A stretch of DNA of 23,110 nt, from positions 1 to 23,110 of IMG/VR virus record IMGVR_UViG_3300025785_001290. One strand, written 5' to 3'. Position 1 is the stretch's first letter; each line of letters opens with the position of its first letter. Origin of the DNA: a virus. Below are positions 1 through 22,875 of the stretch, in pieces. A program made the position numbers and the translations under genes. The notes below the pieces were generated by a model. The model saw only the letters and a list, made by a program, of their open reading frames with translations, searched no databases and was not told where the DNA came from.

Positions 1-1818
1 CTTTACTGGTTCTGTCTTTCCCTTGACGGCGAGTAAGTCGAGCTCAACGACTTGGTATGTATCTCGTACATACTCGGCGGTTTTTGGTCCGATGACAATT
101 TTGACCCCGTAAGGCTTTGATTGACCTTCCAAACGAGATGCCAAATTGACCCCATCACCCAAGCAAGTATAATCAAAACGCTGGGCACTGCCCATATTAC
201 CGACAACAACAGTATCAGTATTAATACCGAGACCCATTCCAAAAGCGGGGATTCCTTCTGCGGTAACTTCATTGTTAAATTCCTTTAATGCTTTCAACAT
301 CTGGAATGCAGTTCTAACAGCATCTTTAGCATGTTGTTCATTGTTAACAGGAGCATTCCAGAAAGCCATCTGCGCATCACCGATGTACTTGTCCAGTGTA
401 CCCTTGTTTTCAAGAATCGCTTTGGTCATTGCTGTCATATAACGATTCATAATCTTAGTTAGTCCCTGTACATCCTTGCCGTAGTGTTCTGAAATTGTAG
501 TAAACCCGCGAACGTCAGTGAACATGATAGACAACTCTTGTTCGGTACCGCCTAGCTGTAGCATATCTGGATTGCGCTGCAACTGCGCAACAAGATCCGG
601 TGACAAATATGTGCCAAACTGTTTCTTAATTTGTTGCTTCTGAAGGAACTCATTAATGAATTTAACTGAATAAACGTGTAAATAAATGACTAGTGCTGCT
701 AGGAAGTTAAAGGATATATCGAATAATATTTTATTGTGGTTAAACATATAAACAGGCGCATATACATAACCTGCTAGAAGTATACCAATCCAAACAATAG
801 AATATCTTACATTAGACAATCCGATAACTGCAAGAGAAAGAAAAGCAAATGCCGCAAGATCAACAAGACCAACCCAATTCGGAATCGAAACAGAATCTCC
901 ATTTAGAAGAGTCTGGAGAATACTGGCCTGAACCTGATGGGGCATTTCGGCACCAGCCGGAGTCGCTACGGGATTTGCAATTCCGCTCGCAGTCACACCA
1001 AGTAGAACGATCTTTCCATCGAGACGAGGAATATTCTCGCCTACTTCAAACGATGAGAATACGTAATTCGGGTTATTAAAAATACGCCCATATTCATCAG
1101 TGGAGATTTTACCAAACTGTGGAACACGAACCGCCTCAACTCCCGTCTCATTTATCTTCGCTTGATAGCTTGGATCGCCTGCGGCAGTACGTAGAAGCTC
1201 TAAAGCAAACGAGGGATAGTATTCTCCAGCTGATGTCGCTAACATTGGAACTCGACGAACAACACCGTCCGATTCGGGAAGAGTCGATGTTATTCCAACG
1301 CCTGCGGCAGATTCTTGAAGACTTGGAATATTATCGAGCACACATGGATAGTTTGGAAGAAAGTCTGTTGGCTTACCGTCTCCAACAACTGCGACGCCTG
1401 TTCGACGAGTAGCTGCGTTATTGCGTGTGCAATCTGAGGAAACTGTCTGACTTAATACTACTGGGTAATTTTTAAGTGATGCTGCGAAAGCATCGTCACC
1501 GTTAAATCTATCTTTTTCAGGGTATAACATAGTGCTACCGACGAGGCCAGCATGACCAGTACCGTACAGATCAGAAATAATTTTCGCATAAGTGTCCCTT
1601 GGAAATGGATATTGACCATATTTGGCCAAGGCTTTTTCACCAATATTTGCAATTACAATCTGTTCACTATGAACAGGTTTACCTAACATTAGATAGTCAT
1701 AGAATTTAAGTTTCATTGCATCAACTAGATACGGGTTTGACAGTTTAACCACCAACAGCAGCGCAAAGGTTAGTATCGCTAACCAAGGGCTTAACAAAAC
1801 TTTTCTTAAATTCTTCAT
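1..1818 (-). CDS. CHASE2-domain class III adenylate cyclase (3' end outside window)
   Basis: Membrane sensor enzyme predicted to make cAMP from ATP. It is read from ATG 1818 (AAGGA upstream) and is open at the window edge after 606 codons. An N-terminal hydrophobic segment (about 10-25) precedes an extracytoplasmic CHASE2 region (about 30-300; DGVVRR and YPSFALEL fit the family). Three hydrophobic segments follow (about 310-390), then a cytoplasmic cyclase domain (about 425-606). The metal-binding aspartates D435 (FTDVRGFT) and D481 (KYIGDA) are present. K477 and the DYT motif fit adenine recognition, and N558 and R562 (NLASRLE) are the transition-state residues, so the enzyme looks active. 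The last residues, GKTEPVK, are typical of the domain end, so little is missing. It is the last visible gene of the curli-like operon, 10 bp after the PA14/curlin gene. The specificity call (cAMP rather than cGMP) is family inference. Confidence 0.93.
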   Translation of the reverse strand, partial: MKNLRKVLLSPWLAILTFALLLVVKLSNPYLVDAMKLKFYDYLMLGKPVHSEQIVIANIGEKALAKYGQYPFPRDTYAKIISDLYGTGHAGLVGSTMLYPEKDRFNGDDAFAASLKNYPVVLSQTVSSDCTRNNAATRRTGVAVVGDGKPTDFLPNYPCVLDNIPSLQESAAGVGITSTLPESDGVVRRVPMLATSAGEYYPSFALELLRTAAGDPSYQAKINETGVEAVRVPQFGKISTDEYGRIFNNPNYVFSSFEVGENIPRLDGKIVLLGVTASGIANPVATPAGAEMPHQVQASILQTLLNGDSVSIPNWVGLVDLAAFAFLSLAVIGLSNVRYSIVWIGILLAGYVYAPVYMFNHNKILFDISFNFLAALVIYLHVYSVKFINEFLQKQQIKKQFGTYLSPDLVAQLQRNPDMLQLGGTEQELSIMFTDVRGFTTISEHYGKDVQGLTKIMNRYMTAMTKAILENKGTLDKYIGDAQMAFWNAPVNNEQHAKDAVRTAFQMLKALKEFNNEVTAEGIPAFGMGLGINTDTVVVGNMGSAQRFDYTCLGDGVNLASRLEGQSKPYGVKIVIGPKTAEYVRDTYQVVELDLLAVKGKTEPVK

Positions 1819-1828
1819 CACGCTATCC

Positions 1829-3025
1829 TTAATGCTTTACATAGGAGTATCCTGTGCAAGGTCCAGAGGTACACGTAATGCTCATTGACGCACTGTCAGC
1901 GGTGGTAGCATTATCTTGAACAACTGTTACTCCAACGTTAGCACTATTTATAGTTAAAGAGAATAACTTCTGTGCTGCGCCGGCCTGTGTAACGCTTACG
2001 GTATTTCCGCTGGTGGGGATGTTTAATTCAAGAAAATGATTAGCATTGCCCTGCTGTGTTGTAGTAATTGAGTTGTTGCTACCACTAACTTCAATAAATG
2101 CACTTTTGCCCGCAGTTCCGGATTGGGTGACATTGGCAGAATTAGTGCTACCATTAATATTTGCTTCTGTATAATTCGAAGACGTTTGTTGATTAATGGA
2201 CAATGTATTGTATGAACCTATTATAGAGGCTTCTAACAAATTATTATATCCAGGAACCGTAGTGCTTCCTTGTTGCACATTCATGGTATTATAGTTACCA
2301 TTGATCACAGCAGATTGTGCTCCATTAATACCTCGTATCACATTGTAATCACCTGTTTGTGTTATAGTCACATTGGTATTATTTCCATAGTTTTGAATAT
2401 ATACAGAATTATTTGTCAACGACACAGTCTGTGATATTTTAACAAGTTCTTGAGTAGATACTGAAGCACTAGGTAATGGCGCTCCCCCATCTCCGAATGC
2501 TTTTGGATTTGGCATCGTTGTTACATAATCACTATTTGGTATTAACGTGATAGAACCGGATTGATTCCAAAATAACTCTACTGCGGCGCCGCCGCCATTT
2601 TCATAATACCACACGTCAAACGCATAGGTTTGGCCGCCTTGCAGGGTTATAGAACCGCGCCCGTTCCAATTTGCTGGTCCTTGTTCTTGCCAATTACTAA
2701 TAACTCGCGAACCGTTGACATTTAAAATAAATCCGTCATCGGAATAATCATAAAATGTAATAGTCTGCGATCCAGAACCAGGAACAGTAATGTATCCGGT
2801 GAAGTGTATTTCAACTCCGTCTGCTAGTCCGGAATTCATAACAATTCCTGTTCCCCAGTTGTAATTGATGTTAGTAGTTGTTCCAGAATTTAATGCCTGA
2901 CCGCATCCGAAACAAGGAGTAGGTCCACCTGCGCGGTATACCTGATAGTTAACATCCGCAAAAGCTCGTGGAGTGAATAACATTAAACATAGAACAAAAA
3001 TCAAGAGCTTATTAAAGGGTTTCAC
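1829..3025 (-). CDS. Secreted PA14-domain / curlin-repeat fusion protein (putative adhesin)
   Basis: 398 aa, GTG start that overlaps the fecR-like stop as GTGA, with GAGGAG about 10 nt upstream. A signal peptide (about 1-23, ending AFA) is followed by a PA14-like beta-barrel at about 25-172. It carries the hallmark aspartate pair D96-D97 in YSDDGFILNVNG, which in yeast flocculins and related adhesins binds calcium and sugar. From about 195 to 375 the chain is made of Asn/Gln/Ser/Thr-rich curlin-like repeats (NTMNVQQG, NSITTTQQGNANH, NTVSVTQAG), which predict a beta-solenoid. Cysteines C38/C41 and C385/C390 could form disulfides. A natural reading is a sugar-binding head on an amyloid-like stalk exported through CsgG. 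The fusion order is seen in the sequence; the ligand and export route are inferred. Confidence 0.86.
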   Translation of the reverse strand: MKPFNKLLIFVLCLMLFTPRAFADVNYQVYRAGGPTPCFGCGQALNSGTTTNINYNWGTGIVMNSGLADGVEIHFTGYITVPGSGSQTITFYDYSDDGFILNVNGSRVISNWQEQGPANWNGRGSITLQGGQTYAFDVWYYENGGGAAVELFWNQSGSITLIPNSDYVTTMPNPKAFGDGGAPLPSASVSTQELVKISQTVSLTNNSVYIQNYGNNTNVTITQTGDYNVIRGINGAQSAVINGNYNTMNVQQGSTTVPGYNNLLEASIIGSYNTLSINQQTSSNYTEANINGSTNSANVTQSGTAGKSAFIEVSGSNNSITTTQQGNANHFLELNIPTSGNTVSVTQAGAAQKLFSLTINSANVGVTVVQDNATTADSASMSITCTSGPCTGYSYVKH

Positions 3026-4176
3026 TTTGGCGGTGCTCCTCGCTGAATAATAGTAATTGTTCCATCGGGTCGTCCCGTACCCGGAGTAGGCCAGTGATGA
3101 TCGGAGAAATTAAATCCGCCAACAATTCCGTCTTGTTCTGTTGTTATTTCTACTTTGGTATTTTTAGGTAAAATGATAATAGATTCTTGTAATTTACTGT
3201 CAGAAATTGTAGTATATGTCCAACCGATCTGGATTAATTTCTTACTAAGCAAGGGATCGACGTCTGTATACACTGTTTGTTTTAATTTTTGTCCCGGATT
3301 ATACTCTACGTATACGGCTTGGAGTTCTGGCTGTGTAGGTGGATTGGCTATAGCAGCAGCAACCATTTCTACATTATCTGTAGTATTTAAATCAGGCTCT
3401 GCGTTTTTATCAGCAGCATTACCCGCCGCATTGGTTTTTTTGAATTCTTTTTTTGCTGACTGTTCTAGGCTTGTACCATCCGAGGTAGGGGGCGTTGCAA
3501 TCTGCAATGAGTTGTTTAATTGCCGGGAGTTAAGGCTAACTGTTTTCGGTGGTGTCGGAGATATATTTGCGCTATCTACTACAGTGGCTTGGAACGGCTT
3601 GTTTAGAGTAACTTTTCCAGTAGCGGTAGCAACTTCGATTTCACCTGTTGGACAATCTGCGATTAGCTTATCCGGATCTTTTTCATCATAACAATTTGGC
3701 AGCAGAACAACCATAGTTCTACCAATCTCGTCAACACTCATGATAAAATCTGTACCACGTACACCAATTGTGGCAGTAGGTGAATGAATATTTACTGCTC
3801 CGGGATTGTTATGAGCAATTGCACCCGATGCATAGCGTACAGTGCCTAGTGCAACTTTAAGTCCTAGCTTACCTTTATTTGATTTTCCGCCATCGAACAC
3901 AAAATCATCTATTACTAATTTGCTATTTTCTGTAATACTAACTGTGGTTGCATCCACAAACGTGATTTTAAATTTTCCTTGACTATTAGTAGAAACAGTA
4001 TCATTCTTTTCAATGCCTGCACCTTTGGCAGCAGGCATGGCCCGGGCAGCACGTTTAATCTGCCCGGCGCCTTTAAACTCTGTTATTGATCCAATACCGG
4101 CATAAGCAGGCACTGACAATAACATCAGTAATAATGCTAATAGTTTACTTGCCTGTTTTAATGTTGATCGTACCAT
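3022..4176 (-). CDS. Periplasmic FecR-domain protein
   Basis: A FecR-domain protein of 384 aa from ATG 4176. A GTG at 4188 would add four residues, but neither start has a good ribosome-binding site. The gene overlaps the upstream curlin gene by about 30 nt. A signal peptide (ending PAYA, about residue 26) is followed by the FecR fold at about 30-160, with LGTVRYASG and the signature SPTATIGVRGTDF. The rest is Lys/Asn-rich with no transmembrane segment after the signal, so the product is probably periplasmic or secreted. It is not the classical FecR: there is no cytoplasmic anti-sigma N-terminus, no FecI-like sigma gene and no TonB receptor nearby. FecR-domain proteins of this exported type are known next to CHASE2 proteins in bacteria, which fits its position two genes before the cyclase. 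Its partner and ligand are unknown. Confidence 0.85.
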   Translation of the reverse strand: MVRSTLKQASKLLALLLMLLSVPAYAGIGSITEFKGAGQIKRAARAMPAAKGAGIEKNDTVSTNSQGKFKITFVDATTVSITENSKLVIDDFVFDGGKSNKGKLGLKVALGTVRYASGAIAHNNPGAVNIHSPTATIGVRGTDFIMSVDEIGRTMVVLLPNCYDEKDPDKLIADCPTGEIEVATATGKVTLNKPFQATVVDSANISPTPPKTVSLNSRQLNNSLQIATPPTSDGTSLEQSAKKEFKKTNAAGNAADKNAEPDLNTTDNVEMVAAAIANPPTQPELQAVYVEYNPGQKLKQTVYTDVDPLLSKKLIQIGWTYTTISDSKLQESIIILPKNTKVEITTEQDGIVGGFNFSDHHWPTPGTGRPDGTITIIQRGAPPK

Positions 4177-4921
4177 TTGATCCAACACTTGTTAAATTAA
4201 TAATGGTAGAATTTGGTCCATACTGTTGAGTTGTAACATTATTATTCGAACCGGTTATATTTTCATATAAACTGTGTCCATACATGCCACCAATGTCAGA
4301 CTGAGTAGCATTAACAGTGTTGTAACTGCCATTGTATACCACAGTCTGGGAAGCATTAGGAGAGGTAACATCCATATTTAAAGTATTGTTACTACCAGTT
4401 ACATTTACAGTATTGGTGATGTTCGCTGCTGCACCGTGAAATACATAAGAATTGCTATCCCCAGTGAATAATGCGTTCATATTAAGATTGTTACATGATG
4501 CTTCGTTTGTGCCGTTACCGCAACGAACAACAGCAGAGTTGCTATTACCAATCTGTCGTAGGGTTACTGTTGCTAATCCCAATGCTCCTGTATCAGAAAC
4601 AACAGATGCCAATACTGAGTTACTATTTCCTGTTTGAATTACAGTAACGGTTTGATTGTCACCTCTTAGATAAACAGGGTCACTTAATGTACCTACTGTG
4701 TTAGTTTGACCAGTTTGTTGGACGTTGATATTGACGTTAGAACCTGCTTGATTGATATAAACTCGGTTTGTTTGTGCAACTGCATCTGCTTCTGCCTGAT
4801 TAGGTGAAGTAGCAACAATTGCTGGTGGCGATGGCGGTGTAGGCACAGTTGCCACTGATTGTGCAAACGCAGGCGATGCAAATAATACTGTGGTAAGTAA
4901 TATTGATTTTAATAGTTTCAT
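4145..4921 (-). CDS. Secreted curlin-repeat (CsgA/CsgB-like) protein
   Basis: 258 aa, ATG overlapping the csgG stop (ATGA), with AGGAG 8 nt upstream. A signal peptide (1-20, cleavage after AFA) is followed by a Pro/Ala-rich linker (about 21-50). That linker replaces the Gly/Asn-rich export segment of E. coli CsgA. Residues about 52 to 258 hold repeats with the curlin pattern of Asn, alternating hydrophobics and Gln-x-Gly-x-x-Asn: VYINQAGSN, VNVQQTG-like, TVTVIQTGNSN and TVTLRQIGNSN are the clearest, degenerating toward the C-terminus. C134 and C143 may form a disulfide. Lying directly after csgF-csgG, it is the best candidate for the secreted fibre subunit. Whether it is the CsgA or CsgB equivalent cannot be told from the sequence. 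Confidence 0.87.
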   Translation of the reverse strand: MKLLKSILLTTVLFASPAFAQSVATVPTPPSPPAIVATSPNQAEADAVAQTNRVYINQAGSNVNINVQQTGQTNTVGTLSDPVYLRGDNQTVTVIQTGNSNSVLASVVSDTGALGLATVTLRQIGNSNSAVVRCGNGTNEASCNNLNMNALFTGDSNSYVFHGAAANITNTVNVTGSNNTLNMDVTSPNASQTVVYNGSYNTVNATQSDIGGMYGHSLYENITGSNNNVTTQQYGPNSTIINLTSVGSNGTINIKTGK

Positions 4922-5739
4922 CTTGATTGCTCCTGTGGCTTAGCCTTAAAACGCCAAAGCCCTTTCCTTTCTCCCTGCTTTATTAGCTCTACAACTCCTG
5001 TCTCTATAGCAGACCGTATTGCATAGCTGGCTGGCTCATTTCTAGTTTGTTGACCGTCAACTTCAAATGCCTTTGTGCCTAGATCAAAAAACTCAAATGC
5101 AGTAATACCTTCAGAAGTAGATAGCACAGTTTTTTCAACGGTTACTGTCTCTAGAATTTCTCCAGTTTGTACAGACACTAATCGTAAACTAATTACTACC
5201 TCGTCCTGAATGTACTGTGTATTTGGACCAATTCCTAGAAATCTAACACCATTGCCTCCGGTCTTAACATCGGAGTTATAGTCAATAATGCCACCTTCTA
5301 GGAGTACACCCGCTACCATCAGGGGAGGTAGCGGTGCTGCTTTGTCGCCGCTCTCTAATTCACGCATTTGACGAATCAATTGGCGTTCTTTAATTAGAGA
5401 ATCAAGCGATACTCTTTCTACAGGGCGAAACCACTTTCCGCCACCGGAATCTTGTAGGGTTTTTACCACGTAGGCATCTGCACCTTGTGTAACAGCAGTC
5501 GAAAACGACGACACTGTTTGTGAAGGTTTACGTTGTCCTGTCTTATCTGTAAAACTGTAAACTGCGATAGGAATCGGAACACCATCTAATTCTGGAAGAT
5601 TTGCCCAAAGTTTTGGATTAGTGTAAGTGCTAACAGTAGCAGGAACAGGATTCAAATAGGAATGATTTAGCCTAGGACCAATTCCGCCCACGCATCCGGA
5701 TAATGCAAATAATAGTGGTAATACTATTAACTTTTTCAT
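4918..5739 (-). CDS. csgG: CsgG-like curli secretion channel (outer-membrane lipoprotein)
   Basis: 273 aa, close to the 277 aa of E. coli CsgG. A lipobox LSGC gives lipidated C16. The CsgG family forms a nonameric outer-membrane beta-barrel that exports curli subunits. Conserved blocks are visible: FSTAV at 79-83, SLIKERQLIR near 114-123, the membrane-hairpin region SDVKTGGNGVRFLGIG (156-171), TGEILETVTVEKT (192-204) and SAIETGV with GLWRF near the end. The constriction loop (about 71-79) keeps the Phe of E. coli F56, but the Tyr51 and Asn55 positions hold Ser/Gln and Ser, and the loop seems one residue longer. AAGGAG precedes the ATG, which lies 9 bp after csgF. Confidence 0.96.
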   Translation of the reverse strand: MKKLIVLPLLFALSGCVGGIGPRLNHSYLNPVPATVSTYTNPKLWANLPELDGVPIPIAVYSFTDKTGQRKPSQTVSSFSTAVTQGADAYVVKTLQDSGGGKWFRPVERVSLDSLIKERQLIRQMRELESGDKAAPLPPLMVAGVLLEGGIIDYNSDVKTGGNGVRFLGIGPNTQYIQDEVVISLRLVSVQTGEILETVTVEKTVLSTSEGITAFEFFDLGTKAFEVDGQQTRNEPASYAIRSAIETGVVELIKQGERKGLWRFKAKPQEQSR

Positions 5740-5748
5740 CTTAACTCC

Positions 5749-6198
5749 TTAAAACGCGAATGTTGCAATTGGAACGGTCACTACCGTTTGGTTCCCAGAC
5801 GAATCGACAACAGTTAATGTTACATCGCTGTTTGATTTGACATAGCTAATTGTGTTACCATCTAACTTGAATGTACCTGCAGTCGACGACCCAGGAGCAC
5901 CGCCGAAAAGGTTGTTGCTCAACTGCGTTGCTAACTGTGAATATACCTGACTAGTAAATAGGTTAATAAACTTAGCCATTGGAGTGTTTGCGGCAGCGGT
6001 CGCAGCAGCTTGTGCGGCCGCATTTTGAGCATCGATTAATGCTTGTTTTCTCGATTGTTCTTCCTGTTGGATTGTTACAACGTAACTACCCCAACCTGCT
6101 CCACTAAACGCAGGGTCTTTAAATTGTTGTGTTAAATCACCAGCGAAGGCAGGACTACTTAGTGTTAATAGAATCAGTGCTGCTAGAATCTTTTTCAT
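5749..6198 (-). CDS. csgF: CsgF-like curli assembly factor
   Basis: 149 aa with a signal peptide (1-19, ending AFA). The mature N-terminus reads GDLTQQFKDPAFSG, matching the E. coli CsgF segment TFQFRNPNFGG that inserts into the CsgG pore and caps it at the cell surface. An Ala-rich linker (about 60-73) and the helix FINLFTSQVYSQLATQL with NNLFGG follow, then a C-terminal beta region (TLTVVDSSGNQTVVTV) like the CsgF tail. In curli systems CsgF couples the pore to nucleation of the fibre outside the cell. The start has a near-perfect AGGAGGT ribosome-binding site 8 nt upstream, so strong translation is expected. Confidence 0.93.
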   Translation of the reverse strand: MKKILAALILLTLSSPAFAGDLTQQFKDPAFSGAGWGSYVVTIQQEEQSRKQALIDAQNAAAQAAATAAANTPMAKFINLFTSQVYSQLATQLSNNLFGGAPGSSTAGTFKLDGNTISYVKSNSDVTLTVVDSSGNQTVVTVPIATFAF

Positions 6199-6239: not shown

Positions 6240-6527
6240 TCAATCTTCAGTATCTTTAACATTTCTATTTTTAGATTTATGTACACTGTGATCCTCCTCT
6301 ATCTGTAGCACTACGCTCACTTTTTGCTGTAATCTTATTAAATCATTGTCTAACATACGAATTCGATCAATTAGCGCAACTAGAACTACGTTTGTCTCAC
6401 CAATTAATGGCATCAATCGTTCAGTAACGAACTTATAAATGAAGTACACGAAATACCCCATTCCCACAGACGAAACTATCGGAAAGCCATATTGCTTAAT
6501 CAATAATGCTAATTGATTTGGATCCAT
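6240..6527 (-). CDS. Small membrane protein, second of a tandem pair (YvrJ/holin-like)
   Basis: 95 aa. One hydrophobic segment at about 14-33, beginning GFPIVSSVGMGYFVYFIY, is followed by an amphipathic, coiled-coil-like stretch (about 45-75) and a charged tail. It is a diverged copy of the gene just upstream, sharing GFPIV, G-x-FVYF and the D-R-x-R-x-(L/M)-(D/N)-x-D pattern, and starts at TAATG on that gene's stop. The GFPIV start of the membrane segment resembles YvrJ-family proteins and some small phage membrane proteins. Candidate roles are holin, antiholin or an inner-membrane component of the curli-like machinery that follows 41 bp downstream. The sequence does not decide. Confidence 0.8.
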   Translation of the reverse strand: MDPNQLALLIKQYGFPIVSSVGMGYFVYFIYKFVTERLMPLIGETNVVLVALIDRIRMLDNDLIRLQQKVSVVLQIEEDHSVHKSKNRNVKDTED

Positions 6528-6814
6528 TAGTCTCTTCTCGCATCATTCTTGCCGTCGGCTCGTGCGATACGATCGAGATCCGGTCTTAGTCCCAATGCCG
6601 AACTTACGGTGGCATCGATACGAATCATATCATGATTCATAGTTCTAACTCGGTTGTCTAGCGCAGTGATAATTCCCTGCATGCCTTTAATGGCTTTGAC
6701 AACGCTTTCGAGAATGTAATTGATTACGAAATAGACAAAGACGCCGCCTCCTATAGCCGCAACTATAGGAAATCCGACGTCTCCGATTAACTTAAAGATT
6801 ACATCACTATTCAT
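6527..6814 (-). CDS. Small membrane protein, first of a tandem pair (YvrJ/holin-like)
   Basis: 95 aa, the same length as its neighbour. A transmembrane segment at about 14-33 (GFPIVAAIGGGVFVYFVI) is followed by a helical region with DNRVRTMNHDMIRI and an Asp/Arg-rich tail. It is the first gene after the 146-bp gap at 6815-6960, and so the probable first gene of the curli-like operon. It also lies directly downstream of a peptidoglycan-hydrolase gene, a place where phages often keep a holin. I see no clear ribosome-binding site; GCGTGC precedes the ATG. Confidence 0.8.
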   Translation of the reverse strand: MNSDVIFKLIGDVGFPIVAAIGGGVFVYFVINYILESVVKAIKGMQGIITALDNRVRTMNHDMIRIDATVSSALGLRPDLDRIARADGKNDARRD

Positions 6815-6960
6815 GCACGCTTATTTAAAGTGTACGATAATGAAATTAAATGTATAGTTAAGTGGTGAACTACGTAGAGCGTATGCAGCCTTCACCTAGC
6901 CTCAGGAGCCTCTCACACCAGCAATCAACTACGTTGATTTACCTCTATCATATAGAGTAT
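6815..6960 (-). promoter_or_regulatory. 146-bp intergenic region with three hairpins
   Basis: The largest gene-free stretch, lying between the hydrolase gene and the curli-like operon. Three inverted repeats are seen: 6943-6957 (CTCTAT, 3-nt loop, 6-bp stem), 6923-6939 (AATCAAC, 3-nt loop, perfect 7-bp stem) and 6864-6896 (GGTGAA/TTCACC closing an inner TACG/CGTA stem). No T-run follows any of them, so they are not classic terminators. No TATAAATA late box is present. A weak sigma70-like pair on the minus strand (TTAACT, 16 nt, TATCGT, about 6838-6865) is possible but poor. It probably holds the operon promoter and a structured leader or processing site; I do not recognise a known RNA family. 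Confidence 0.5.
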
Positions 6961-7803
6961 TTAAGCACCTTTGTGTGGACGAAATATTCCGGAAATTTGG
7001 CCTTTGCCGGATGCACTTAGTCCGCTCGGCCACGACACTGTTACTGCACTGTGACCAGGATTGTTGTTTCCAACTGACCCGCCTTGATTGCCTCCGATAA
7101 ATGTATAATTTCCCGGACCTTTTACTTGATAAATGAAATTTACGTGATGGAAATTCCAATACACAATATCCCCTGGCTGACCTTGATTAATAGGAACAGG
7201 AGTTGCACTCCATCTTCCGGGATTTGATGAAATTGCCTGAGAACTTGCTTCCGGGCACCATTTATAACCGCAAGATTTAAGAGCAAAATTAACAAATCCC
7301 ATGCACCATGCCGGTTGATCGGTTTTAAACAGTGCATTTCCTGATAGCCCCAGAGATTTCCAAATGTTTGCAATATTTGGATTACCAGGAGTTGAAACAA
7401 TTGTTCCGTGTGCGGGGTTAACTCGAGACCAAGCCCCCGAAGCCGCTTCCTTTACTCTAGCTTCTAACCAGGGAATTAAATCCCCACCAGTTGCTGAAAG
7501 ATCTACGGCTCCGGGAGTATTAGTTAACGGTGATGCAGAATCACTTGATCCGACAGGTCCACCGTTCGCAGCTTCTTCAGCAGGGGAAGCAATTGAACTT
7601 GCTGCAAATTCGTCGGCGGCGGCTTGATCTACTGTTGATTGTGCGGCAGGAACACTGGCAGAAGCGGCACTTCCTGATCCTGCCCCATACAATACAATAG
7701 GAACATTATTTGAAAATACAGTAGGTGATTGATAAAGATCAGTAACGTCAGGACTTGTACTCGACTGCTGCGGTTTACCATCTGTAATCCACGGTGTACT
7801 CAT
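6961..7803 (-). CDS. PAAR-like tip domain fused to CHAP/NlpC-type peptidoglycan hydrolase
   Basis: 280 aa, ATG with AGGGA upstream. The N-terminus (about 1-40) has the pattern TPWITDGKP...SPTVFSNNVPIVLY, resembling PAAR-like tail-tip proteins of T4-like phages. An Ala/Ser-rich linker (about 41-100) leads to a C-terminal cysteine-peptidase/amidase domain (about 108-278). That domain has candidate catalytic C167 (PAWCMGFVNFAL), H219 or H220 (FHHVNFIY, after GDIVYW) and N239 (FIGGNQGG), as in CHAP-type endopeptidases. The likely role is cutting murein either from the baseplate tip during entry or at lysis. The PAAR-like front favours a virion part; the neighbouring holin-like genes favour a lysis role. 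Confidence 0.78.
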   Translation of the reverse strand: MSTPWITDGKPQQSSTSPDVTDLYQSPTVFSNNVPIVLYGAGSGSAASASVPAAQSTVDQAAADEFAASSIASPAEEAANGGPVGSSDSASPLTNTPGAVDLSATGGDLIPWLEARVKEAASGAWSRVNPAHGTIVSTPGNPNIANIWKSLGLSGNALFKTDQPAWCMGFVNFALKSCGYKWCPEASSQAISSNPGRWSATPVPINQGQPGDIVYWNFHHVNFIYQVKGPGNYTFIGGNQGGSVGNNNPGHSAVTVSWPSGLSASGKGQISGIFRPHKGA

Positions 7804-9718: not shown

Positions 9719-9946
9719 TTAACCCTTTAGATGAGCAACTAATTCAGTATATCCGCCGATCAATTCATCGTCGAGGAATACCTGTGGGACTGTTCGAGCA
9801 TTTGGAACTGCTTCTAGTAGTTGTTCCTTAGTCCATGTACCTGCAGTAACGTCACGTACTTCATATTCAATACCTTTACTATCTAGTAATTTCTTGGCAT
9901 TTTCGCAGTATGGGCACGGGGTCTTCGACCAAACAATTGCTTTCAT
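9719..9946 (-). CDS. grx: Glutaredoxin
   Basis: 75 aa with the dithiol active site CPYC at residues 11-14, the cis-proline loop TVPQVF (about 53-58) and the glutathione-side GGY motif (about 64-66). This is a minimal glutaredoxin, the expected electron donor that reduces the C-terminal cysteines of the phage ribonucleotide reductase encoded upstream. It starts at TAATG on the stop of the preceding gene. Confidence 0.95.
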   Translation of the reverse strand: MKAIVWSKTPCPYCENAKKLLDSKGIEYEVRDVTAGTWTKEQLLEAVPNARTVPQVFLDDELIGGYTELVAHLKG

Positions 9947-10317
9947 TATTTCTTGTCCTTTGTCTTGAGGACGATTGAGGAGAAACCCCAGCTCAATGGT
10001 CTATTCATTTTTTCTTCCTTCGGTGGCAATTTAATGACACAAGGCTGACTGATCTTCATCGCATAACCACGAATAGCTGCAACAAGACTGGCCGACTTGC
10101 GTTCAATCCAATTAGCAAGGCCATCTAATAAACGTACTCGCAAGCAATTGTTCTTTTCTGCAATTTCATCTAACTTCTTTAGAAATTTGTTTGTTTCTGC
10201 TCTATTTTGTTCTACAGCTTGTTCATATGCAGTTTTTGATTCTGGAGTAAATGCAAAATCAACCTTATGACCGCTCAGTGTTGTCATTGTTTTTATTTTT
10301 GTTTCTTCATCTGACAT
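9946..10317 (-). CDS. Unknown phage protein between nrdB and glutaredoxin
   Basis: 123 aa, ATG with AAGGA 7 nt upstream, 10 bp after nrdB. It is charged and mainly helical in the middle (TAYEQAVEQNRAETNKFLKK), with a more hydrophobic stretch LANWIERKSASLVAAIRGYAM and a Lys-rich end. No signal peptide or membrane segment is clear. I do not recognise a family; its place suggests it is co-expressed with the dNTP-synthesis genes. Confidence 0.75.
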   Translation of the reverse strand: MSDEETKIKTMTTLSGHKVDFAFTPESKTAYEQAVEQNRAETNKFLKKLDEIAEKNNCLRVRLLDGLANWIERKSASLVAAIRGYAMKISQPCVIKLPPKEEKMNRPLSWGFSSIVLKTKDKK

Positions 10318-10327
10318 AAATTATTCC

Positions 10328-11428
10328 TTATAAATCTGGCAATTCACTATATTCAACAGTATCCGACATTACTCCAATTACATAGTTGGTTGATTCATTT
10401 TCCTGCAATGCCGTCTGCTTTTTATTAATGTTTACATGCTTATTAAACCAAGGAATGGGACTTGACTTAGGGTATTCTCCTTGATACTTAATACCAATGT
10501 CCTTGAGACGATTAAATGCTGTAAAGTCTACAAAATCCTTAAGGATATTAGCATTTAACCCAATAACAGGTCCTAGCTTAAACAAATAAGTAGCCCATTC
10601 TTTTTCTTCGCGAATAACATCCATATACATTTGATATACTTCAGCTTCGCACTCTTTAGCGATATCTACAAACTCTGGATCATCCTTAGGAACCTGATTG
10701 ATCAACCACGCTGTCCACTCGGTGTGCAGAAGTTCATCCTGTAGAATCAAACTGATAATATTTCCATTACCGATGTAAATTTTATTTTCGACCATTGCAA
10801 GACTTGTAGCAAAAGACACCATAAAGCGTAATGCTTCAAGTGCATAGCTTGCGTGAAGTGCTAGCCAAATGGCTTTTTTGTGGTCACGAACTGGAATGTC
10901 TTCACCGACTTCCTTGCGACAATTCAACAAATGTAGATCTTCGTAATATCGACCAACATTTGCAGCCATTTCTACAATTTCAGAAGTGTCATGAATTTTG
11001 TTAAATTCATCTTTGGGCACACCATAGACGTTGCGAATGATATGACTGTAGCTCTTGCTATGAATATTCGTTTCGAAAAAACTCCAATTACTTACAAGAG
11101 CCTCTAGTTCTGGAATTGAAATTACAGGACTAAAGATCTGGTTAGGTGCTCGGCCTTGAATACTATCCAATGCAGTTTGTCGTAGAAGATTAGACGTAAA
11201 GATATGCTTGACAGCAATAGTAGCTTCCTTGTGATCCATTTTGTCTTTGGTCAACGAGATTTCTTCTGGAACCCAAAAGAATCCACGTGCCAGTTCTTCA
11301 AACTTGGCAATCCTAGGATACTTGACTTCCTCAAACCGCTGCACCGTAACAGGCCCAGCAGGATCCAGAAACATAGTACGCTTAAGATAATTTGTTTGTT
11401 TTGAAATGTCGTATTGTGCTTTTGACAT
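10328..11428 (-). CDS. nrdB: Ribonucleotide reductase class Ia beta subunit NrdB
   Basis: 366 aa. Makes the tyrosyl radical used by NrdA to reduce ribonucleotides. Matches to E. coli NrdB include FWVPEEI (W52), ALDSIQGR (ligand D88), HSKSYSHIIRN (ligand H123, radical Y127), ALEALRFMVSFA (ligand E198), LQDELLH (ligands E232 and H235), the transfer tyrosine in TNYVIG (Y349) and an acidic C-terminal tail ending SELPDL for binding NrdA. One oddity is that the first Glu ligand and H123 are separated by three residues (E119-T-N-I-H) instead of the usual two. AAGGA lies about 11 nt before the ATG. Confidence 0.96.
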   Translation of the reverse strand: MSKAQYDISKQTNYLKRTMFLDPAGPVTVQRFEEVKYPRIAKFEELARGFFWVPEEISLTKDKMDHKEATIAVKHIFTSNLLRQTALDSIQGRAPNQIFSPVISIPELEALVSNWSFFETNIHSKSYSHIIRNVYGVPKDEFNKIHDTSEIVEMAANVGRYYEDLHLLNCRKEVGEDIPVRDHKKAIWLALHASYALEALRFMVSFATSLAMVENKIYIGNGNIISLILQDELLHTEWTAWLINQVPKDDPEFVDIAKECEAEVYQMYMDVIREEKEWATYLFKLGPVIGLNANILKDFVDFTAFNRLKDIGIKYQGEYPKSSPIPWFNKHVNINKKQTALQENESTNYVIGVMSDTVEYSELPDL

Positions 11429-11434
11429 GACAGT

Positions 11435-12061
11435 TTATTCCTTTATATTGAATGTTAGCTTATATGCTCTTAATAGATTGAATTCCGAAATAATAGTTTC
11501 TTGCACTGTTTGATTTTTTGATAATACATATCTATATTTTTCATAATTTTCAGTGTTACCTAAGAACTTTTGTAAATCATCGACGGTATTTAATTTTTGA
11601 AAATTTTTAGTATTATCGGGATCATACACCATTATTACATTGCCTGAATTTAATAATCGCTTCCATACTGATAATCCCTCTTTACTTAATAATGAACCAC
11701 TGAATAATAACGATCCCGGGATTGTTAATAAAATACTTTGATAAAATTCACTAGCAAACTGTTCGTATCCTGGTTCTTTGCCAACAATTTCAACAGACAA
11801 CCCATTTTTAAATCTACTCATTCGAGCTGCAATTTTAATCTGCGAGTTGATTGAAACCCAATAATAAATTTCAAATTGGTCAATAATAAGATTGAACAAA
11901 TTATTTCCAAGATTATTTGGTTGATGCCCGTTTTCAATATTTGCTTCTATCACTGTTTTCAAATCAGAAAAAGGATTATGTCCTGATGGCCCAGTGTACC
12001 TGGGCATTTCAAAAATCCAAGATTCATTAAATCTTTGAATAAATGATTTTTCATCAGACAT
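11435..12061 (-). CDS. Unknown 208-aa phage protein between nrdA and nrdB
   Basis: Looks cytoplasmic and mixed alpha/beta, with no signal peptide or membrane segment. Visible blocks are FNESWIFEMPRYTGPSGHNPF near the start (split here by no known motif), NLIIDQFEIYYWVSI, then MSRFKNGLSVEIVGKEPGYEQFASE and a C-terminal helix. The gene looks more AT-rich than the flanking nrd genes, which may mark it as a later insertion. It overlaps the small gene upstream by 8 bp and ends 7 bp before nrdB. Family unknown to me. Confidence 0.75.
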   Translation of the reverse strand: MSDEKSFIQRFNESWIFEMPRYTGPSGHNPFSDLKTVIEANIENGHQPNNLGNNLFNLIIDQFEIYYWVSINSQIKIAARMSRFKNGLSVEIVGKEPGYEQFASEFYQSILLTIPGSLLFSGSLLSKEGLSVWKRLLNSGNVIMVYDPDNTKNFQKLNTVDDLQKFLGNTENYEKYRYVLSKNQTVQETIISEFNLLRAYKLTFNIKE

Positions 12062-12227
12062 TAATTATTTCTTTCTTCATTAATGTTTCTAAATCTTTGA
12101 TAGTTTCATCTTCTAGTTCACAGTACCAAACGGTTCGCCCATCAAGCTCAACACGCTGTTTGAACATTAGGTTTATTTCTTTTTCAACTCCCTCTTTGAG
12201 GGACATTACTGTTAATATTTTAGACAT
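12054..12227 (-). CDS. Small unknown protein (57 aa) after nrdA
   Basis: ATG 12227 with AAGGGA a few bases upstream, starting 11 bp after the nrdA stop. The product begins MSKILTVMSL and contains RVELDGRTVWYCELEDETI, suggesting a small beta-hairpin followed by a helix. Its stop overlaps the start of the 208-aa gene. No family recognised. Confidence 0.65.
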   Translation of the reverse strand: MSKILTVMSLKEGVEKEINLMFKQRVELDGRTVWYCELEDETIKDLETLMKKEIINV

Positions 12228-12237
12228 AATTTTCCCT

Positions 12238-14589
12238 TTAGAGCTTACAGGCTAGACAGTCGTCTTCGTCTTCATATATTGTAATAGGTTCACCCGGAAC
12301 AATGTTATTTTGTGTACTTCCGTTAATCTGGGTAGTGCCAGTTACTGCTTCCTTAGACCCAACCTTGTTGATCAAGCTATAATATATAGTCTTAATGCCC
12401 CACTTATAAGCAAGCATGAGATTCTTGACAATTAATGTGCCGGGAATCTTGCCACCTGGAAAATGTGCGGGATTATAAAAAGTATTAGTCGAAAGTGATT
12501 GATCGATGTAAGCAGCAAGAACCGCAGCAGTCTTTAGATATGCTTCACAGTTAGTCTGATCCCACATTAATTGATAACGGTTCTTGTAACGACGATATTC
12601 CGGAACAACCTGTACAAACGATCCTGCTTTGGATTCCTTGACCGAGATCAGTTCCATGGGCATTTCGATACCATTAGTTGAATTAAGAACAACACTTGAA
12701 CTTTCCACAGGAGCAACGGCCATTAGCGTAGCATTACGAATTCCATATTGCAACAGTCGAACGCGAAGACCTTCCCAGTCTAGGTTAGAACTAGGTGTAA
12801 AGTCTGTTAGTTCATTAACTCCTTCAGCTCTACGTTCCCAAGGAAAAATACCTCGGCCGTAGTAAGTTGCAGAGCTACGTTCGCAAGGACCACGTTCTTG
12901 TGCGAGTTCGACACTCATCTCAGTGAGGAAGTAAGCCTGATGCTCCATCCAACGTTTTACTTCGGCTAACGTCTCAGCTTCACCGTACTTAAAATTTCGA
13001 CGAGCATGCCAGTAAGCTAGATTAGTAATTCCGATGCCAAGAGGTTCAAATTCTTTATTTGCAAGCTGACTCTGAATGCTTAGGAAATCCTGATAGCTGA
13101 GCAAATTGCTAAGGCTGCGTACAAGAACACGGCAGGCCTTACGCATTTCTTGCGGATTACGAAATGCTCCCCAATTGATGCTTCCTAATGTGCAGAGTGC
13201 AATACGTCCAGCTTCATCTTCGATGCGTTGAAATGGGCGAGTAGGAAGTAGAATCTCTTGACACAAGTTGCTCTGATAGATAGGATCTGTTGTAGTATCA
13301 AACGGACCTTGATTAATAACATTGTCGATATTTACAAGATAGATACGACCAGTATCAGTACGTTCTTTTAGAATACCATTTTTAATAACTTCTTCAGCAG
13401 CAATGGTTTTCTTTTTAATTACATTGTTCTTTTCATATTTTACATACAGCTTTTCAAATTCTTCACTGTTACGATAATATGCTTCGTAAAGATCCGGAAC
13501 ATCATGCGGATCGAATAAGGTGATATTCTCTTTGTTCTTTAAACGTCGCCAGAACATTGCATTCATTACAACGCTGTAATCCATTTGACGAACACGAGTT
13601 TCTTCTGTGCCCTGGTTGTTTTTTAGTACAATTAGGTCTTCAAACTGATAATGCCAAATTGGGAAAGTGACTGTGCAGCTGGCATTTCTGATGCCACCTT
13701 GTGAGCAGCTACGCAGGTCTGCAAACCACTTTTTAAGAAAAGGAATTAATCCAGTATGTTTGATCTCACCCTTACGAATTGGGGCTCCGATCGGTCGAAT
13801 TCTGCCAATTTCGAGGCCGATTCCGGCTCGTTTTGAAGCATATTTGGCCATCATTTCGCCTGCTGCAAAGATACTGTCCAATGTATCGTCTGCAGAAATT
13901 AAAACGCAGCTAGAAAACTGTTTTGTCGGAGTTCCGAGTCCTGCAAGCACAGGTGTGGCCAAGGTGAAGTGCCCGTCGCTGGCGCATTCATAATATTCTT
14001 TGACTAACTTTAGTCGCTTATCTGCGGGCTCATTGTGGAATGCAGTTGCAGCAGCAATAGCATATCGTACCTGCGGAGTTTCGTAGATCTTTCCGGTTGC
14101 TCGATTCTGCACCAGATACTTTTCTGCAAGCTGAGCAATCGCAGCGTAGGTGTAATTTTCATCTTTGTCATGATCGATGAATAGATTAATTATATTCCAC
14201 TCATCCTCAGTGTACCACTCAAGTAGTTCCGAGCTGTACATACCGAGTTCTACATTCTTTTTAACAATGTCATAAAGCGGCGGCGGAGTGTATGTGCCAT
14301 ATACACTTTTGCGTAACATACTAACTTTCTGGCGACCAGCAACGTACTGATAGTTTACGTTGTTGATTTCCGGATTTTCGCTTTCGTCGATAAGATCGAC
14401 CATAGCCTTGAGCAACAGTTCGTCAATGGTTTCTGTACTAATGCCGTCATGTAGTTCTAGGTGAGCTTTAATTTCGATCATAGACGGACTAACTCCATCT
14501 ATACCTTTGCAGTCAAATGCTACCTGTCTTTGTATTTTATTAATATCTAACGGCACTTTTTGACCGCTGCGTTTGACGACTGTTATCAT
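12238..14589 (-). CDS. nrdA: Ribonucleotide reductase class Ia alpha subunit NrdA
   Basis: 783 aa (E. coli 761). Reduces NDPs to dNDPs. An N-terminal ATP-cone (about 1-90; VVKRSGQKVPLDINKI) indicates dATP/ATP control. Catalytic residues are all visible: C228 (SSCVLI) and C466 (ALCTLGS) as the redox pair, N441-x-C443-x-E445 (NLCQE) as the radical site, and the tyrosine pair Y736-Y737 (IYYSL) for radical transfer. The C-terminal shuttle cysteines are C778/C781 in DCLACKL, a CxxC rather than the Cx4C of E. coli. GAGG precedes the ATG. It works with the NrdB and glutaredoxin encoded downstream. Confidence 0.97.
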   Translation of the reverse strand: MITVVKRSGQKVPLDINKIQRQVAFDCKGIDGVSPSMIEIKAHLELHDGISTETIDELLLKAMVDLIDESENPEINNVNYQYVAGRQKVSMLRKSVYGTYTPPPLYDIVKKNVELGMYSSELLEWYTEDEWNIINLFIDHDKDENYTYAAIAQLAEKYLVQNRATGKIYETPQVRYAIAAATAFHNEPADKRLKLVKEYYECASDGHFTLATPVLAGLGTPTKQFSSCVLISADDTLDSIFAAGEMMAKYASKRAGIGLEIGRIRPIGAPIRKGEIKHTGLIPFLKKWFADLRSCSQGGIRNASCTVTFPIWHYQFEDLIVLKNNQGTEETRVRQMDYSVVMNAMFWRRLKNKENITLFDPHDVPDLYEAYYRNSEEFEKLYVKYEKNNVIKKKTIAAEEVIKNGILKERTDTGRIYLVNIDNVINQGPFDTTTDPIYQSNLCQEILLPTRPFQRIEDEAGRIALCTLGSINWGAFRNPQEMRKACRVLVRSLSNLLSYQDFLSIQSQLANKEFEPLGIGITNLAYWHARRNFKYGEAETLAEVKRWMEHQAYFLTEMSVELAQERGPCERSSATYYGRGIFPWERRAEGVNELTDFTPSSNLDWEGLRVRLLQYGIRNATLMAVAPVESSSVVLNSTNGIEMPMELISVKESKAGSFVQVVPEYRRYKNRYQLMWDQTNCEAYLKTAAVLAAYIDQSLSTNTFYNPAHFPGGKIPGTLIVKNLMLAYKWGIKTIYYSLINKVGSKEAVTGTTQINGSTQNNIVPGEPITIYEDEDDCLACKL

Positions 14590-22230: not shown

Positions 22231-22875
22231 TCAGTGGAATTTAATTCCCGATGCTGCTTCTACAGTAGCGAGCGGAACTTCATTAACTGGAGCCTTAACA
22301 GTGTTGTTGGCAACGTAGGCTTTGATCGTGCCGTCCTTAAGATATACAATCTTGTAATAGCTTGTAGGAACTGGAACATTGTGCTTGCCGATTGTCTTGG
22401 TGCTGCCTGTGTAGATTGCACCAGTGACAATATAAGTTGCTGGCATTGTACGGACATTGGCTTCTAGCATACGCCAAGAAATACGATTAACAGTTGGCTC
22501 CTGTGGAGTCATATTTGTCATTAGAAAAGTATCAGACATTTGATTGTCGTTGCCGGCATCTGCCGCAGGTGTAAGATGTCCACGGTCAAGTCCAGTGTTG
22601 TCGTAATCACCCGGAGTTGGGGAGTTTTTGAGCCGGGGGTCGGCGTGAAAATTGTTTGATCGTTCCACTTTGTCTGCGTGTGGAAGGAACGCTTCTGTGG
22701 AAAAAATAGCTTCTTCCTTATTGGCATTGTAGACAGTGGCATAGAAAGTGTTGCAGAGAACCTGTGTACCTGGTACAACAATTTCCTTGCCGTTTGGAAA
22801 GAATTGATCACAGGCCGAAGCATGTGCTGCTGCCGGTGCAAGTAGAAATGAAAGTGCAAGAAATAGTTTCTTCAT
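22231..22875 (-). CDS. Secreted DNA/RNA non-specific endonuclease (NucA/NUC1 type)
   Basis: 214 aa. A signal peptide (about 1-19, ending AHA) sends it to the periplasm or outside. The family's DRGH motif is at 97-100 (catalytic H100) in LDRGHLTPAADAG. N121 (TNMTPQ), the metal-binding N130, and the W134/E138 block (RISWRMLEANVR) follow in the normal order. AAGGA precedes the ATG and a late-type box lies 25 bp upstream. It would cut DNA and RNA without sequence choice, plausibly degrading incoming competitor DNA or released host DNA, or helping lysate spread; these roles are inferred. Confidence 0.93.
   Translation of the reverse strand: MKKLFLALSFLLAPAAAHASACDQFFPNGKEIVVPGTQVLCNTFYATVYNANKEEAIFSTEAFLPHADKVERSNNFHADPRLKNSPTPGDYDNTGLDRGHLTPAADAGNDNQMSDTFLMTNMTPQEPTVNRISWRMLEANVRTMPATYIVTGAIYTGSTKTIGKHNVPVPTSYYKIVYLKDGTIKAYVANNTVKAPVNEVPLATVEAASGIKFH

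Follow-up and report, generated by a model that had tools for sequence, protein, structure and literature searches.

CsgA and CsgB of Escherichia coli consist of curlin repeats and are encoded together with CsgG and CsgF, as are the curlins of the phage cluster described here; to our knowledge, neither of them carries a PA14 or any other head domain. PA14 domains are found in adhesins such as the RTX adhesin MpAFP, Flo5 and Epa1 and in RsgI-type proteins, which have the fold and the Asp-Asp motif in common with the second curlin of this cluster. The stalks of these PA14 proteins are RTX or Ig-like modules, fungal wall repeats or an anti-sigma factor, and a curlin solenoid is not among them. 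Curli clusters in phages have been known since 2020, and the uses proposed for them are an uptake pore, sibling capture, defence against superinfection and a lysis timer. In the accessible text of Zaragoza-Solas et al. 2020 (PMC7029224), csgF and csgG are described together with hypothetical genes in pelagimyophages and sibling capture is proposed; that of PMC9599517 (2022) identifies curlin repeats, FecR, a second curlin and a cyclase in a Wittmers-type cluster; and that of Buchholz et al. 2022 (PMC9004378) proposes a lysis role for the cluster of phage Melnitz because csgA and csgB seemed to be absent. The main texts of these three papers contain no mention of PA14, though supplements might carry one; the accessible text of PMC9599517 does not mention lectin, adhesin or carbohydrate, and neither it nor the accessible text of PMC7029224 describes heads, head exchange or a C-terminal cap. 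In the open-access literature, as far as its texts were accessible, a PA14-curlin fusion with an exchange pattern was not found, and PA14 domain and curlin were found together in one paper, on yeast adhesins. As far as these texts go, the phage secretion cluster, the PA14 domain and the curlin repeat are known, and the fusion and the exchange of heads are new.

The window, that is, the whole 23,110-nt stretch of viral DNA analysed, carries on its minus strand, in this order, two genes of 95 aa, csgF, csgG, a first curlin, a FecR-domain gene, the PA14-curlin gene and a CHASE2-cyclase (Table 1), and the same order recurs in other viral loci (numbered with L below). A bacterial origin of the stretch was considered and rejected: it belongs to a virus record and holds phage genes throughout. 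The nearest relatives of its NrdA are from Xanthomonas and Stenotrophomonas phages, which does not fix the host. Inspection of the open reading frames of the cluster revealed no CsgE, CsgD or CsgC. Most related loci likewise have the pair of 95-aa genes before csgF, and these match no Pfam family at cut-off. In L003, L004 and L011, the CHASE2-cyclase has 686 aa.

Table 1. Features of the phage type VIII secretion cluster and of the PA14-curlin gene (positions in the window)
Feature	Position	Strand	Basis
CHASE2 (E 1.4e-35) + class III nucleotide cyclase (E 6.8e-21), truncated at the end of the window	1..1818	-	Pfam
Second curlin gene (P0001): signal-peptide-like start, PA14 head, curlin solenoid, two-cysteine cap; 398 aa	1829..3025	-	ORF, Pfam, model
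Curlin-type beta-solenoid, residues 195-398	1832..2443	-	Pfam, solved relative, model
C-terminal cap C385-x4-C390	1856..1873	-	Comparison of second and first curlins
PA14 head, residues 24-170 (Pfam span 49-158)	2516..2956	-	Pfam, solved relatives, fold
D96-D97, calcium/sugar-type Asp-Asp motif (putative role)	2735..2740	-	Alignment
Signal-peptide-like segment, residues 1-23	2957..3025	-	Read by eye; helix 6-15 in model
FecR-domain protein (PF04773, E 8.1e-11), 4-nt overlap with second curlin gene	3022..4188	-	Pfam
First curlin-like gene, 258 aa (PF07012, E 0.098, below cut-off)	4145..4921	-	Pfam, neighbours
CsgG outer-membrane channel (PF03783, E 2.3e-51)	4918..5739	-	Pfam
CsgF (PF10614, E 5.3e-17)	5749..6198	-	Pfam
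Two small genes, 95 aa each, before csgF; the one at 6240-6527 is phrog_18771	6240..6814	-	Neighbours in loci
TTTAAATA, one mismatch from T4-type late promoter TATAAATA	6822..6829	-	Before first cluster gene, weak alone

According to the accessible published texts, the pelagiphage type VIII cluster has the same order of csgF, csgG, curlin, FecR, second curlin and cyclase, and the cluster of podoviruses has a histidine kinase before csgF, whereas this virus has the two 95-aa genes there; these may equal what the accessible text of PMC9599517 calls histidine kinase. The gene order is also that of Pelagibacter phage HTVC008M, in which the orthologous second curlin is annotated as hypothetical; this protein is 29% identical over 97% of the length, has a PA14 match of 27.7 bits (cut-off 24) and contains curlin repeats. 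Similarly, methylophage Melnitz (MZ577097) has the same cluster order; its second curlin, however, has repeats without a PA14 head, and the PA14 head is therefore not needed by such phages. Similar proteins of uncultured phages are entered in BFVD as "PA14 domain-containing protein" or "Curlin associated". In phage CsgG, the column of Y51 of the E. coli protein holds no Tyr in any of 88 sequences and Ser in 58, at a place where the alignment is ambiguous because the loop is one residue longer in the phage proteins, so that nothing is claimed here about pore width.

The PA14-curlin gene is a real minus-strand reading frame with a GTG start. It is under purifying selection: a relative that is 95.8% identical (L005) differs from it by 41 synonymous and 9 non-synonymous changes, of which 27 and 3, respectively, fall in the PA14 part. 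The sequence-only reading had described a PA14 barrel with D96-D97 joined to curlin-type beta-solenoid repeats, and both halves were recovered by profile searches and in the predicted structure, in which the PA14 fold and the solenoid are present. PA14 (PF07691) is matched at E 2.7e-14 with 53.7 bits, where the cut-off is 24, and the solved PA14 domains 6qe7 (E 3.1e-18) and 6qdi (E 9.9e-13), both from RsgI-type proteins, are matched by sequence. The AlphaFold2 model, built from a 14-row alignment of phage sequences (mean pLDDT 72.9, pTM 0.54), contains an N-terminal beta domain with block means mostly of 70-85, a linker at about residues 170-205 that is poorly predicted (block means 38-52) and, at about residues 206-397, short strands stacked as a ladder. 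The predicted beta domain superimposes on 6qe7 and 6qdi with Z 19.6 over 139-141 residues, on the sugar-bound PA14 domain of Marinomonas MpAFP with Z 15-16 and on Flo5 with Z 14.5, the matches to PA14 structures ranging from Z 13 to 19.6. D96-D97-G98 is invariant in all 14 aligned PA14-curlin proteins, and we take the Asp-Asp motif to be a calcium/sugar-type site as in Flo, Epa and MpAFP; the putative third calcium-ligand region varies, being YYENGG in this virus and YEWGG in HTVC008M. Based on the fold and on the motif shared with sugar-bound adhesin domains, the PA14 head is a putative glycan-binding domain.

The curlin part passes the Pfam cut-off for Curlin_rpt (PF07012; E 5.1e-5, 23.6 bits against 20.7) in three stretches and matches the solved curlin-repeat protein 8c50 by sequence (E 1e-5, residues 206-347), and residues 172-398 of the model resemble a SufB/SufD-type beta-solenoid with Z 17.5; its length, first put at about 180 residues, is corrected to about 200. 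The repeat pattern of the single sequence is modest (4 seen, shuffled mean 0.92, as many in 16 of 2000 shuffles), and the curlin assignment therefore rests on the profile, the homologues and the fold. All 55 complete second curlins, representing 49 unique sequences, end in a cap with two cysteines, a count that is partly due to selection because 11 capped sequences served to train the profile by which second curlins were defined; the corresponding count for first curlins, 0 of 75 (0 of 64 unique), is unaffected by this. In addition, all 160 cysteines located after residue 32 of second curlins lie in pairs no more than 12 residues apart (shuffled mean 27.4, maximum 44 in 500 shuffles), and all 62 are still paired when the cap is left out. 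Such pairing would fit oxidised extracytoplasmic proteins with short disulphide loops that could pass unfolded through a narrow channel.

In E. coli, the N22 segment targets curli subunits to CsgG. No N22-like segment was seen by eye after the signal peptide of first curlins or headless second curlins, the latter starting directly with a repeat, and targeting to CsgG must therefore differ from that of E. coli. The mature N-terminus of the PA14-curlin protein is the PA14 head and not, as in E. coli-type subunits, a targeting segment followed by repeats only; since no N22-like segment was seen by eye here either, the protein is filed as a curlin-repeat fusion and not as CsgA or CsgB. The sequence-only reading was right that the layout differs from CsgA and CsgB, a PA14 head being set on a curlin solenoid; the neighbouring genes encode CsgG, CsgF and another curlin, a placement that would be expected of an adhesive minor subunit. 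It also placed the protein at the tip of the fibre, which is a guess: in many relatives, the curlin encoded at this position has no head, and anchoring at the base, as by CsgB, would fit equally well.

The position between the FecR and cyclase genes behaves as a modular slot. Its content was tallied in the best 80 of 582 confirmed CsgG loci, a sample that leans to near relatives. FecR and cyclase are complete enough and on one strand in 52 of them (L010, on the same contig as L004, was dropped), and removal of 10 near-copies left 42 non-redundant viral loci. In these 42 loci from the best 80 of 582, the slot holds a headless curlin in 17, PA14 with curlin in 5, one of three other heads on curlin in 9 (a flavodoxin-like head in 4, the type of L016, L019 and L022 in 3 and the type of L015 and L020 in 2), a short protein having just the cap in 1 and other genes only in 4, two of these being non-specific endonucleases; in the remaining 6, the slot is empty while FecR and cyclase are kept. 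A further 36 loci, picked by PA14 and kept outside the slot tally, comprise 15 curlin fusions and 21 PA14 proteins in which no curlin repeats were called. The model of the flavodoxin-like head (mean pLDDT 61.2) has no match in the PDB at E 0.001 or better, and its best matches are flavodoxin-like at E of about 0.02-0.04; with such weak matches, the fold is named only loosely. No Pfam domain was found in the heads of L015, L016 and L020.

Heads and solenoids have different histories in these loci, and the head is therefore regarded as an exchangeable module. The solenoids of L015, L016 and L019 are 62-64% identical to that of this virus over 203-204 residues, and their CsgG and cyclase are 71-76% and 72-88% identical, respectively, but none of their heads reaches E 1e-3 against the PA14 head, the best value being 0.007 over short segments. 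L091 is the reverse case, its head being 50% and its solenoid 26% identical to those of this virus. The mosaic is also visible in DNA: compared with L016, the gene is 83% identical over nt 2-54, the signal-peptide part, shows nothing over nt 55-613, the head, and is 70% and 76% identical over nt 614-758 and nt 985-1197, respectively, while the flanking L016 cyclase is 88% identical in protein. In quick trees, the state of the slot changes at least 21 times on the FecR tree (49 rows; least possible 6), where 7 changes for PA14 are required by the starred branches on their own, and 22 times on the cyclase tree (48 rows). The slot labels are more clustered than shuffled ones, with none of 200 shuffles as low, and inheritance is therefore visible besides exchange. 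By comparison of these sequences, PA14 is one of at least four exchangeable heads, other relatives having no head or no slot gene. The sequence-only reading mentioned neither that the gene belongs to a phage nor that its head is one of several, the latter being more interesting than the fusion itself. A scan of bacterial genome contigs with one PA14 pattern gave 2 loci (L123 and L124), which have PA14 without curlin nearby, and plasmids gave 5 matches with PA14 only; a bacterial source of the head-curlin architecture is possible, the bacterial scan having used one PA14 pattern.

The time of expression was approached through the T4-type late-promoter sequence, given as TATAAAT in the accessible methods of PMC9004378. 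In this virus, TTTAAATA stands 15 bases before the first small gene of the cluster, and exact copies of TATAAATA number 3 across the 23,110 nt against 2.1 expected, which is no more than chance. When the region from -60 to +30 of csgF or of the small genes preceding it was scanned for the 8-base TATAAATA, 25 of 75 loci had the sequence there, with about 2 of 75 expected, as had 11 of 695 control reading frames. This excess across loci makes late expression of the cluster likely for the group, and for this phage late expression is no more than suggested.

The evidence leans, if gently, towards the PA14-curlin protein being a late-made, exported minor curli subunit that displays an exchangeable putative binding head on the infected cell. 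The cluster, with CsgF, CsgG, a headless first curlin, FecR and the CHASE2-cyclase, encodes a predicted PA14 fold, a flexible linker and a capped solenoid, and the slot in relatives, with other heads, no head or no gene, points to the head as the exchangeable part. The cluster would be made late in infection, a T4-type late-promoter sequence standing before it in a third of relatives; the protein would then be exported by Sec, threaded unfolded through the phage CsgG and folded outside, and since its cysteine pairs are local, they should not hinder threading. The solenoid would join the curli of the first curlin, either terminally or at the side of the fibre, while the PA14 head would bind glycans of neighbouring cells, of particles or of the producing cell itself. 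The phage would probably gain from this by holding new hosts near at release or by keeping competing phages off. What speaks against display on the infected cell is that no N22-like segment was seen, that the PA14 head would need to cross the pore unfolded and that, according to the accessible text of PMC9004378, Melnitz-infected cells were not seen to clump, although Melnitz has no PA14 head. The lack of this head in Melnitz, the variable third calcium-ligand region and the mismatch in the late-promoter sequence of this virus also count against the reading. A wider form of this reading, plausible though held more tentatively, is that in phages of many lineages PA14, a flavodoxin-like alpha/beta domain and two further, unassigned heads have been recombined onto a common capped, late-made solenoid, giving the amyloid fibres of the infected cell a binding specificity chosen by the phage.

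Several other readings of the same cluster were weighed. The second curlin may be a CsgB-like nucleator whose head fastens the base of the fibre to the envelope sugars of the infected cell, in which case the exchange of heads would track the host surface type. The presence of two curlins per cluster, as in csgB and csgA of E. coli, a cap that could end the stack and the binding of glycans by PA14 domains in solved structures agree with this; it is nevertheless regarded as unlikely, as many clusters with a headless or no second curlin still keep FecR and cyclase, and the sequence does not indicate the end by which the protein joins the fibre. CHASE2 and FecR belong to domain families of the sensing type, and the genes FecR, slot and CHASE2-cyclase follow each other with short overlaps or gaps, so a periplasmic head acting with FecR could feed the cyclase and let the infected cell sense curli export or the state of its wall. 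This is considered improbable: FecR and cyclase are kept without a slot protein in 6 of the 42 loci (from the best 80 of 582), and the heads change while the cyclase stays 72-88% identical, whereas the input to a sensor should change together with it.

Little credence is likewise given to a lysis device, in which phage CsgG would be a pinholin- or secretin-like pore timing lysis (Buchholz et al. 2022) with the curlins as accessories. The accessible text of PMC9004378 proposes this for Melnitz, and late-type promoter sequences and a gene with a CHAP domain next upstream (6961-7803; Pfam E 1.7e-4, below cut-off) are in keeping with it; yet the proposal assumes, in that text, that csgA and csgB are missing, and the GenBank record of Melnitz (L007, MZ577097) contradicts this premise, having two genes for a "curlin associated repeat protein" at 9857-10576 and 11635-12651, both over the Pfam cut-off. 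Moreover, a pore alone leaves the conserved curlins and the exchanged heads unexplained. That the protein is a tail-fibre-like component of the virion merely resembling curlin is very improbable, even though PA14 domains are present in other phage proteins, given the signal-peptide-like start, the fixed position in a secretion cluster and the cap and repeats common to headless curlins.

That the head is exchangeable while the capped solenoid is conserved speaks for a ligand-directed role outside the cell and argues against a role as a pore only. If the wider reading, with exchanged heads displayed by the infected cell, is true, the protein would be a virus-encoded, diversifying adhesin of that cell, akin to the exchange of tail-fibre tips but outside the virion. 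In addition, the natural swap points between signal peptide, head, linker and solenoid may be useful for designing the display of binding domains on curli.

Some further observations were made on the genes of the cluster. The FecR-domain proteins of this virus (3022-4188, minus strand) and of L002 (9560-10666) end in residues resembling a curlin strand, TITIIQ and AITINQ, respectively. CsgG-like genes were also seen in OR851715 (1499 bp, "Salmonella phage S.Kent 1-2-1"), which has no annotation and is perhaps host DNA, and in Brevundimonas phage Kabachok (ON529852, 83692-84582), where the gene has no curlin neighbours by annotation. At 22231-22875 (minus strand), this virus encodes a DNA/RNA non-specific endonuclease (PF01223) whose start resembles a signal peptide; an endonuclease of this family replaces the second curlin in the FecR-cyclase slot of L024 (6978-7736) and L068 (9388-10143) and directly follows FecR in L064 (9512-10225). 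Large slot reading frames of 490-788 aa occur in L033 (9370-11364), L053 (11017-12927), L059 (10112-12142), L099 (8410-10776) and L027 (5612-7084); they have no Pfam match, a signal-peptide-like start and a C-terminal Phe like that of outer-membrane barrels. Between the second curlin and the cyclase of L028, a NifU-like gene (PF01592, E 1.9e-37) is located at 6605-7033, and a similar reading frame is present in L030, L048 and L049.
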